Positions 41,620-57,736 of a DNA stretch of 64,000 nucleotides are shown in pieces. A program made the translations under genes and the position numbers. The first letter of the stretch is position 1. Every line of letters begins with the position of its first letter. The DNA comes from Xestospongia bergquistia (lineage: Eukaryota > Porifera > Demospongiae > Haplosclerida > Petrosiidae). Location: NCBI GenBank assembly GCA_963965975.1, contig OZ014425.1, positions 2,307,501 through 2,371,500 on the forward strand, given 5' to 3'. The notes beneath the pieces were generated by a model. It saw only the letters and a program-made list of their open reading frames with translations, had not been told where the DNA came from and ran no database searches.

Positions 41620-41772
41620 TTACAATCCAATCCAGTAAGATCTGCCACAAGAGTTATGCAAGCCTGTAGTCACAGGATGAGTTAAGGCCCATTCATACCA
41701 TACTTTCCTTGAGTTAGAACATCTCCAAATATGGACTTCGATCATACCATGGCCTTCAACATAAACTGGCTT
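41620..41772 (-). CDS. PRMT5: PRMT5 last exon
   Basis: [20 protein letters not shown] then VWYEWAL and a C-terminal [11 protein letters not shown] before TAA at 41622-41620. The W-R-C-S-N-S and G-R-S-Y-x-I-G-L end are diagnostic. Acceptor TTATAG. Confidence 0.96.
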   Translation of the reverse strand, partial: KPVYVEGHGMIEVHIWRCSNSRKVWYEWALTHPVTTGLHNSCGRSYWIGL

Positions 41773-56700: not shown

Positions 56701-57736
56701 TTCAGTAAAAACAGAGAGTTCTAAACTGACCTGAATGTAAAAAGCGATAAATTCTTCACTCAAAAATTATTTTGTGTTATTACTTATTTGAGTAAATTGT
56801 AAGCAATGCATTATTACTAACTAATATTCTTTACCTAGGTTGGATGAGATAGTTAGTGTCAAAAAAAACATTATACGTGTTAAACAGAAGAACAAGCTCA
56901 CCCATGAATTACTTTTGTGCTACTATAATTACTTTTAGTATGGTTATAATTTTAAACTTTACCTTTCACTGCTACATATATCCACTACCTCATCCTCTAA
57001 GACGTCTTCCTCTTCATCACCATTATAACCAAAGACAAGGTCTGTTGCTACATCTCACTCACTACTGTTTATTATTTCGAAAACATACTTACCTGTGAAA
57101 CTCATAATGTGGTCTCCTTCACAAAAAATACCAGGGTAGACTTTGGCTATAGATTAATTTCTGACACTTAGTGCAGTTAATTACGGTCAGTGTAAAGGTA
57201 AGTAACAATAATTGGATGCACTGTGCTTTGTTGTTATTACATACGTACATCATAAAATTACTTCTAAGAATGACACAAAGTGGACAAAATCTATAAGCAT
57301 GTACATAGTACACATGCCATCTTAAAATTGGTATGGAATGCATGTAACGCATAAATAAGCTACAAAAACGTGACACTATATTAAATACTCACATGATCTG
57401 TTTGACAGGCTCCCTTCAGTACAAGTTGAACATCAAGCTAGAGGAAGTACATAACAATAATAAAACAAGTACTTTTCGTTAGAACATTTCTTACCTTGAA
57501 CATTTGTAAGAGAAACTCCTGGTGACTTCTTTTAAGAACAGGAAATTCTAAGGTAAATATGTATTACATGAAAGGATATAAAAGTATTGCAACAATGTCA
57601 CTGTACCATAGCATCACTTAGTGATGATCTTGAGTCTTTCATAAAGCAAAAAAGCAGGTTTATATATATATATATCAACTCACAATAGCAAGATTGGCAA
57701 CAACAAGCAATCTCAACCTTGTAGCAGTCAGTGGCA
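41620..57736 (-). CDS. PRMT5: PRMT5, type II protein arginine methyltransferase (N-terminus missing, disrupted)
   Basis: PRMT5 makes symmetric dimethylarginine on histones and Sm proteins, usually with MEP50. Twelve minus-strand exons fit its order: 57736-57684 (tentative), 57547-57495, 57437-57393, 54939-54881, 54681-54559, 53194-53110, 52934-52844, 51867-51767, 51718-51613, 42749-42636, 42590-42527 and 41772-41620. The SAM loop reads GAGRGPL. The double-E loop SELLGSF...[10 protein letters not shown] keeps both catalytic Glu. The C-terminus ends [12 protein letters not shown] sites and phases agree from 54939 downward. Two lesions are present: TGA at 54627-54629 (family Arg, CGA) and a T run one base short at 42537-42542. 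The TIM-barrel exons are absent, and so are exons between 54939 and 57393. Introns otherwise hold transposon debris. It may be a pseudogene, a null allele or an assembly-error copy. Confidence 0.92.
42527..42590 (-). CDS. PRMT5: PRMT5 exon, SWFPI block, with homopolymer frameshift
   Basis: [16 protein letters not shown], then six T where seven are needed to read F-F-P-F-K into the last exon. As given, the frame is lost at 42537-42542. Bounded by TTGTAG and GTATGT. Confidence 0.93.
42636..42749 (-). CDS. PRMT5: PRMT5 exon, LHGFAGYF-equivalent
   Basis: [17 protein letters not shown] then [19 protein letters not shown]. Joined in phase to the 51613-51718 exon across the large intron. The next intron is 45 nt. 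Confidence 0.95.
44520..45658 (+). pseudogene. gypsy remnant: RNase H joined to integrase tail
   Basis: RNase [41 protein letters not shown] and [12 protein letters not shown] (44655-44830), with the catalytic Asp of YSDYKPL kept. The linker [18 protein letters not shown] follows at about 44909-44962. Then the sequence jumps past the whole integrase core to a C-terminal tail: [19 protein letters not shown] and, after a frame change, [25 protein letters not shown] (45344-45430). It ends [16 protein letters not shown] before the purine tract AAAGGGGGAGGAG (45647-45658). RT and integrase catalytic domains are deleted. Confidence 0.85.
45659..45902 (+). repeat. 3' LTR of the 44.5-kb gypsy remnant
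   Basis: Begins TGTGAGATATTCC directly after the purine tract and probably ends at ...AAAACATCACA. The 5' LTR was not found. Confidence 0.6.
45903..47107. other. intronic spacer, nothing recognised
   Basis: Short open frames at 46433-46618 and 46480-46668 overlap each other and show no family features. No repeat or splice signal worth naming. Confidence 0.5.
47386..48666 (+). mobile_element. non-autonomous hAT element with perfect 8-bp target duplication
   Basis: The 8-bp repeat CAAGTCAC flanks it (47378-47385 and 48667-48674), inside the Tigger transposase coding sequence. Ends are inverted: TAGTGTTGTTTCAGTT on the left and TAGTGTTGTTTTAGTT read inward from the right. Subterminal sequence is saturated with AACTAACTATAACTAA motifs. 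A BED-zinc-finger-like scrap is near 47835-48010 ([19 protein letters not shown] in shifted frames). A later transposase scrap is at 48173-48372 ([20 protein letters not shown]). The catalytic region is lost. Confidence 0.94.
48375..48655 (+). repeat. tandem repeat of about 42 bp inside the nested hAT
   Basis: Six or seven copies of a unit like AACTAACTATAACTAACTAA followed by AATTATTCCATTGGTAGAAA, spaced about 41-45 bp. Repeated subterminal motifs are typical binding sites for hAT transposases. Confidence 0.88.
49150..50150 (+). pseudogene. gypsy remnant with RT core deleted
   Basis: RT entry motif [17 protein letters not shown] (about 49252-49305, shifting frames) is followed almost at once by RNase [13 protein letters not shown] (about 49364-49400) and [16 protein letters not shown] (49548-49595). 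Later pieces resemble the post-RNase H linker: [18 protein letters not shown] (49813-49866) and integrase N-terminal sequence. The RT palm is missing. No LTR was located. Confidence 0.7.
50340..51060 (+). pseudogene. Tc1/mariner transposase remnant
   Basis: In broken frames: [17 protein letters not shown] and a [20 protein letters not shown] block (50650-50710), [15 protein letters not shown] with the second catalytic Asp (about 50762-50806), and [19 protein letters not shown] (50834-50893). The acidic residue before LW reads Asp where Glu or Asp is usual. A C-terminal [21 protein letters not shown] ends near 51035. The N-terminal DNA-binding part is gone. No terminal repeats were found. Confidence 0.8.
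51341..51412. repeat. (GT)n/(AT)n microsatellite
   Basis: A GTGTGT run to 51360 passes into ACATATATATACATA and, after a short break, (AT)n to about 51411. Confidence 0.93.
51613..51718 (-). CDS. PRMT5: PRMT5 exon, PYVVRL block
   Basis: [19 protein letters not shown] then CFKFSHPNQ. Conserved E-x-P-Y-V-V-R-L and F-S-H-P-N are present. Donor GTAACC opens the 8.9-kb intron. Confidence 0.94.
51767..51867 (-). CDS. PRMT5: PRMT5 exon, beta-barrel start
   Basis: [20 protein letters not shown] then [12 protein letters not shown]. Joins the preceding exon in phase 1 and the next in phase 0. The following intron is 48 nt. Confidence 0.94.
52844..52934 (-). CDS. PRMT5: PRMT5 exon, catalytic double-E loop
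   Basis: [20 protein letters not shown] then [10 protein letters not shown]. Both catalytic Glu of the double-E loop are intact. Bounded by CCTAG and GTATCA. Confidence 0.96.
53110..53194 (-). CDS. PRMT5: PRMT5 exon, VVSSDMR block
   Basis: Frame [20 protein letters not shown] then RYWTAPEK. The Asp-Met of SSDMR contacts SAM in the family. Bounded by CTAAG and GTACAT. Confidence 0.93.
54559..54681 (-). CDS. PRMT5: PRMT5 exon, SAM-binding GAGRGPL loop, with nonsense codon
   Basis: [17 protein letters not shown], then TGA (54627-54629), then [22 protein letters not shown]. The stop replaces the conserved Arg after Ser/Ala-Leu. CGA to TGA is a single C-to-T change. The acidic Glu of YAVEKN that binds SAM ribose is kept. 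Confidence 0.92.
54881..54939 (-). CDS. PRMT5: PRMT5 exon before the SAM-binding loop
   Basis: Frame [19 protein letters not shown] between acceptor TTCAG and donor GTATAA. The protein match is weak, but its phase joins the next exon exactly to give [17 protein letters not shown]. Confidence 0.55.
55321..55385. repeat. GC-rich transposon terminus-like block
   Basis: TTATTGGGGGGCCAAGCCCC ... GGAGGGGCCACTGGCCCCCC in otherwise AT-rich sequence. G-rich ends with CCAGTGGCCCC are common at hAT and related termini. No partner end found. Confidence 0.35.
55540..55815 (+). pseudogene. hAT transposase C-terminal fragment (ZBED type)
   Basis: In shifting frames: [27 protein letters not shown] (55650-55728), then [27 protein letters not shown] (55728-55810). 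A-T-S-V-P-S-E-x-[IV]-F ... G-x-I is the hAT dimerisation signature of ZBED-like elements. It lies in a PRMT5 intron. Confidence 0.75.
56157..56640 (-). pseudogene. Harbinger transposase 5' fragment with terminal repeat
   Basis: The minus-strand frame 56405-56157 has [14 protein letters not shown] and [18 protein letters not shown], matching the N-terminus of the 10446-11650 copy. The rest of the transposase is missing. The outer end is preserved: reading inward from 56640, AGGCTTATTCACACTAGAGT, then repeated ACGTT/AACGT motifs, a Harbinger-like terminus. TAA, a usual Harbinger target, follows it. Confidence 0.82.
56157..57380. repeat. duplicated segment, copy B
   Basis: Matches 11340-12670 with an inverted middle block (56645-57050) and a 184-bp deletion relative to copy A. 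It lies inside a PRMT5 intron and ends within about 10 bp of the donor of exon 57393-57437. Confidence 0.85.
57393..57437 (-). CDS. PRMT5: PRMT5 exon, LDVQLVLKG block
   Basis: Frame [15 protein letters not shown], in phase with the previous exon, ends at donor GTGAGT. The duplicated Harbinger segment begins within about 10 bp of this donor. Confidence 0.85.
57495..57547 (-). CDS. PRMT5: PRMT5 exon, FPVL block
   Basis: Frame [17 protein letters not shown] between acceptor CCTTAG and donor GTAAG. It matches the conserved G-[FY]-P-V-L-x-x-x-H-Q block of PRMT5. The 57-nt intron that follows is typical of this genome. Confidence 0.85.
57684..57736 (-). CDS. PRMT5: PRMT5 tentative exon (end of TIM barrel)
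   Basis: Acceptor TATAG and donor GTGAGT bound a frame [17 protein letters not shown]. It sits where the family has a beta strand before the FPVL block. Its end phase (0) does not match the start of the next exon (phase 1), so either an exon between them is missing or the call is wrong. Confidence 0.3.

Follow-up and report, generated by a model that had tools for sequence, protein, structure and literature searches.

A partial PRMT5 copy in the sponge Xestospongia bergquistia is most likely a young duplicated pseudogene

Main

Is a disrupted PRMT5 copy in the genome of the sponge Xestospongia bergquistia a broken version of an essential gene, a duplicate that has died, or an intact gene carrying consensus errors? 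The copy lies on the minus strand of a 64,000-nucleotide stretch of contig OZ014425.1 (C15:2307501-2371500), which we call the window and in which all positions without a contig prefix are counted. An earlier note had described this copy as having a near-perfect exon structure between 41620 and 57736, disabled by an in-frame stop and a shortened T run, and had offered three readings: a young unprocessed pseudogene, a null haplotype or an intact gene with consensus errors. We refer to the copy in the window as B, and to the two others that this assembly holds as A and C.

A full-frame PRMT5 on the same contig

The earlier note had proposed looking for a second PRMT5 locus. Profile and protein searches covered the genome of 146,460,797 bases in 21 contigs, and they revealed copy A, with a full open frame, and the partial copy C, both on C15. 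The PRMT5 profile PF05185 gave seven matches on C15, distributed over A, B and C, PF17286 gave six matches in A and B, and PF17285 gave two matches, only in A. All 29 matches to the A protein at E <= 0.001 fell on C15 within A, B or C. In this whole-genome protein search, in which all 31 candidates were scored, exons 1-6, 9 and 10 were found in A only and exon 11 in A and C.

Copy A occupies C15:3190911-3227769 on the plus strand, opposite in orientation to B. We modelled it by hand, using GT/AG sites and phases to join the conserved pieces; exon 1 was picked among three candidate open frames, one of which has two donors, for its resemblance to the PRMT5 N-terminus. The resulting model has 19 exons and GT-AG introns, and its 1866 bases make 622 codons, that is, 621 residues and one terminal stop. 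Pfam matches to PRMT5_TIM (residues 29-274, E = 1.4e-63), PRMT5 (282-448, E = 6.7e-73) and PRMT5_C (451-619, E = 2e-56) place a complete TIM barrel, SAM domain and oligomerisation domain in one open frame. Residues 4-621 aligned to residues 12-637 of the human PRMT5 structure 4gqb (E = 1e-215), and other human PRMT5 structures aligned likewise. Copy A is apparently an intact PRMT5 gene, approximately 0.8 Mb from B on C15, and would be expressed and supply PRMT5.

Copy B lacks nine exons and carries two further lesions

To compare the copies, we reverse-complemented the window and set the exons of B against those of A for lesions and length. Exon-by-exon blastn (each exon with 25 flanking bases, E <= 1e-6) against C15:2256001-2371500 recovered 10 of the 19 exons of A in B, namely 7, 8 and 12-19 (Table 1), and exons 1-6 and 9-11 had no match in the window. 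The near-perfect exon structure claimed earlier thus does not describe B as a whole. From the SAM loop onward, the claim of correct exons and splice sites stood for exons 12-19 (54681-41620, minus strand), in which all internal AG/GT dinucleotides are kept; it failed for exon 18, which is one base short and is the only B exon to differ in length from its A counterpart. Splice dinucleotides are in fact intact in all ten remaining exons. The claimed extent is right at 41620, where exon 19 ends; the other limit, 57736, overshoots the outermost coding piece, exon 7, whose edge is at 57547. Over 936 coding bases, B differs from A by 24 substitutions and one deletion, which is compatible with a young copy. 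Exon 14, which contains two Glu residues that we take to be the catalytic ones of PRMT5, shows no difference in 91 bases. The kept splice dinucleotides and the unchanged exon 14 alone would look gene-like.

Both lesions reported in the earlier note are present in the assembly. At codon 361, B reads GCACTTTGAGCTGC where A reads CTGCACTTCGAGCTGC, giving an in-frame TGA in B and CGA in A; in a three-way alignment, the C of CGA is also kept in copy C. The stop arises by C to T transition at a CpG, a frequent type of mutation. In exon 18, the run of seven T in A is six in B, which shifts the frame. This call could itself be a sequencing error; the verdict on B would be unchanged. Together with the nine missing exons, the stop and the frameshift are the disabling lesions of B, in which no single open frame spans a complete TIM barrel, SAM domain and oligomerisation domain.

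The missing exons fall into two groups. Exons 9-11 were lost at a sharp junction (Table 1). Exons 1-6 are located at A 3190911-3200144, and no window piece aligned to A 3189198-3200361 at a bit score over 250; a tandem array of 143-bp units lies at 58206-59574. We rejected an assembly gap as the cause of the missing exons: the only gap, at 37501-37700, falls beyond exon 19.

Table 1. Positions of PRMT5-like and associated features in the window
Feature	Window position	Strand	Remarks
PRMT5-like exon 7, end of TIM barrel	57495..57547	-	splice dinucleotides kept; 2 substitutions vs A
PRMT5-like exon 8	57393..57437	-	splice dinucleotides kept; 1 substitution vs A
Deletion junction	54908..54970	-	54908 = A 3213444, 54970 = A 3208318, ~5.1 kb apart in A; exons 9-11 absent
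Exon 12, SAM-binding GAGRG motif	54559..54681	-	3 substitutions, one of them the stop
In-frame TGA, codon 361	54627..54629	-	CGA in A and C
Exon 13	53110..53194	-	5 substitutions vs A
Exon 14	52844..52934	-	identical to A
Exon 15	51767..51867	-	2 substitutions vs A
Exon 16	51613..51718	-	2 substitutions vs A
Exon 17	42636..42749	-	5 substitutions vs A
Exon 18	42527..42590	-	3 substitutions and one-base deletion in T run (frameshift)
T6 run in exon 18	42537..42542	-	T7 in A
Exon 19, last, TAA stop	41620..41772	-	1 substitution vs A
Segmental duplicate core	38239..58215	-	pieces including introns align to C15:3200362-3230683, 92.4-97.5% per piece
Further duplicate piece	60822..63787	-	inverted, 87.9% to C15:3184688-3187619, upstream of A exon 1
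Mobile-element-like open frames	1314-2054, 10449-11033, 21918-22544, 28618-29145, 33826-34482, 34853-35485		Pfam match

Homology to copy A extends through introns and flank

Homology between B and A runs through introns and flank in 16 pieces over 250 bits (38200-58300; 92.4-97.5% identity each). The core is inverted relative to A, except for a small piece at 56515-56675, and its outer part (57661-58215) aligns to an A intron. Farther out, 60352-60732 matches A 3188826-3189197 in the same orientation (91.9%), followed by the inverted piece listed last but one in Table 1. Because the alignment to A continues through introns and flank, both of which B retains, B is an unprocessed segmental duplicate; a retrocopy origin is ruled out, since its introns align to A. 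Its homologue elsewhere in the genome, A with its 621-residue frame, is predicted to be functional.

On the other side of the core, the extent of the duplicate is less sharply drawn. The stretch 31046-38238 has simultaneous matches at several places in the A region, and these sequences also recur within A 3230684-3240960 itself. Pfam matches to a reverse transcriptase (under the cut-off) and a zinc knuckle fall within the stretch as well. It therefore consists of repeated elements and says little about how far the duplicate extends. Beyond it, 27500-28311 and 30458-30500 match C15:3279621-3285929 in inverted orientation at 94-98% (among the best 40 of 181 candidates scored); the duplicate may therefore once have extended past the repeated elements. 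The 2.1 kb between these two matches is insertion-like, flanked in the manner expected of an insertion by a direct repeat of 0.2 kb and 93% identity (28314-28525 and 30250-30456). The first part of 27500-30500 also has weaker relatives (66-79%) scattered on other contigs, among the best 40 of 181 candidates.

Copy C lies to the left of the window at C15:2293054-2302600, in the same orientation as B and approximately 47 kb from it. What remains in C is the final 19 bases of exon 10, exon 11, which also has a second partial match, and exons 12-16, the end of exon 16 being matched twice; blastn at E <= 1e-6 detected no exon 18 there. A deletion leaves exon 12 of C one base short, and its exon 15 has lost 6 bases and gained 5. 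A 2.9-kb probe from B matched itself, C (94%), A (93%) and 27 other places over at most 173 bases.

Coding constraint in the three copies

We aligned exons 12-16 of all three copies over 3293 gap-free positions (499 exonic and 2794 intronic) and counted the changes private to each. Those seen only in B number 9 in exons (7 missense, 1 stop and 1 synonymous) and 39 in introns, or 1.80% against 1.40%. Copy C has 11 exonic (9 missense and 2 synonymous) and 54 intronic changes of its own (2.20% against 1.93%); four of the exonic ones cluster in codons 422-423 and another lies next to an indel, so the underlying events may be fewer. Private to A are 3 exonic (2 synonymous and 1 missense) and 50 intronic changes (0.60% against 1.79%). 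Eight of the nine B-only exonic changes alter the protein, compared with approximately 71% expected at random; this agrees with a loss of coding constraint, as does a B-only density no lower in exons than in introns, but the sites are few. Fisher tests comparing exonic with intronic density gave P = 0.053 for A, 0.54 for B and 0.73 for C, with small numbers and no outgroup. From these counts, A appears to be under constraint, B and C not. As the comparison lacks an outgroup, changes scored as A-only may instead stem from a common ancestor of B and C. The introns differ at 91 positions between A and B, 106 between A and C and 95 between B and C, about equal distances, and two intronic positions differ in all three copies.

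Repeats and mobile elements around copy B

Other repeats lie in the window as well. A tandem array with a 296-bp unit (15680-16889) resembles repeats at C15:3175966-3183755 beside A. By eye, 47108-49137 is a pogo/Tigger-like DNA transposon whose inverted ends nearly match (CAGTAGACCCTCGCCAGT and its complement) and which encloses a 40-bp tandem array. It probably predates the duplication, because it lies within a stretch that aligns to A (46040-52264). Of the nine open frames scanned, six matched Pfam families at E <= 0.001 (Table 1), namely integrase core and reverse transcriptase (both under the cut-off), DDE_Tnp_4, Pao peptidase A17, DUF7041 and zinc knuckle; frames 6934-7527, 20349-21137 and 25191-25601 had none at this threshold. 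The stretch 10176-12671 matches C15:3202886-3204989, inside an A intron, at 88-93%, and is probably a shared transposon, because it includes the DDE_Tnp_4 frame. Rfam gave nothing in the window at gathering thresholds.

Weighing the explanations

We consider it very probable that B is a young, dead, unprocessed duplicated pseudogene of PRMT5, the first of the readings offered in the earlier note: an apparently intact PRMT5 stands on the same contig, and B bears introns and lacks nine exons. An inverted copy of a segment around A, the putative parent, would have been placed at about 2.29-2.37 Mb of C15, where the degraded partial copies B and C now share one orientation. B would then have lost exons 1-6 and 9-11, gained the nonsense change (CGA to TGA) and the one-base frameshift, and evolved as an inert copy without visible coding constraint while A supplied PRMT5; the order of these steps is our reconstruction from the sequence. 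Loss of the sole PRMT5 was rejected once copy A had been found on C15, and with A present there is no need to postulate that an essential gene was lost.

The null haplotype of the earlier note would make B the PRMT5 of the other haplotype, a null allele or unpurged haplotig misplaced on the scaffold of A. Alleles of highly heterozygous animals can diverge by a few percent, and a 200-N scaffold gap (37501-37700) lies beside B, directly after scaffold position 2345000. The core of B (38239 onward) is wholly to the right of this gap and C to its left, and the left border, from 31046, consists of retroelement-like repeats found at several places near A, leaving the join without confirmation by homology. 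No other N occurs in C15:2256001-2381500 or 3172001-3252000. The right flank of B (L029:1500-4500) had no C15 match except itself among the best 5 of 487 candidates, which says little. Against a haplotig, however, there are three copies rather than two, about equally distant from one another in their introns, and B and C have each undergone large losses relative to A, different in the two. Because A, B and C lie on one contig, with A inverted relative to B approximately 0.83 Mb away (nearest coding ends), we regard a null haplotype as unlikely.

Consensus errors at two sites in an intact gene would be favoured by the T run, since a change in homopolymer length is a common sequencing error. Nine exons are missing whatever these two sites read, however, and exons 12-16 carry nine B-only coding differences, eight of them protein-altering; these observations exclude the reading for B, and with a separate open-frame copy in A we give it almost no weight. 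It is also very improbable that B and C are transcribed into RNA antisense or homologous to PRMT5 that would tune the functional gene as small RNA or decoy. The duplicated pseudogene remains our preferred reading.

Comparison with known systems

This locus carries a warning for annotation. Gene prediction could yield a partial PRMT5 model at B, and B alone could mislead a reader into inferring the loss of an essential gene, with a full-frame copy elsewhere on the contig. Titles and the openings of abstracts on PRMT5 pseudogenes and segmental duplication, and on PRMT5 in sponges including Amphimedon, described no such case.

Measured against human PRMT5, a type II protein arginine methyltransferase (4gqb), A has all three Pfam domains and aligns over residues 4-621, whereas B retains only what exons 7-8 and 12-19 encode. 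Most of the TIM barrel is absent from B, as is the linker leading into the SAM domain, and its frame is broken by a stop and a frameshift. Like the class of unprocessed pseudogenes in segmental duplications, B keeps introns and duplicated flank, has lost exons and carries disabling changes, and it may lack coding constraint. Nothing in B is distinctive against this class, of which two such copies, B and C, stand here. B is thus most likely an ordinary duplicated pseudogene of a known class, and not a case of essential-gene loss.
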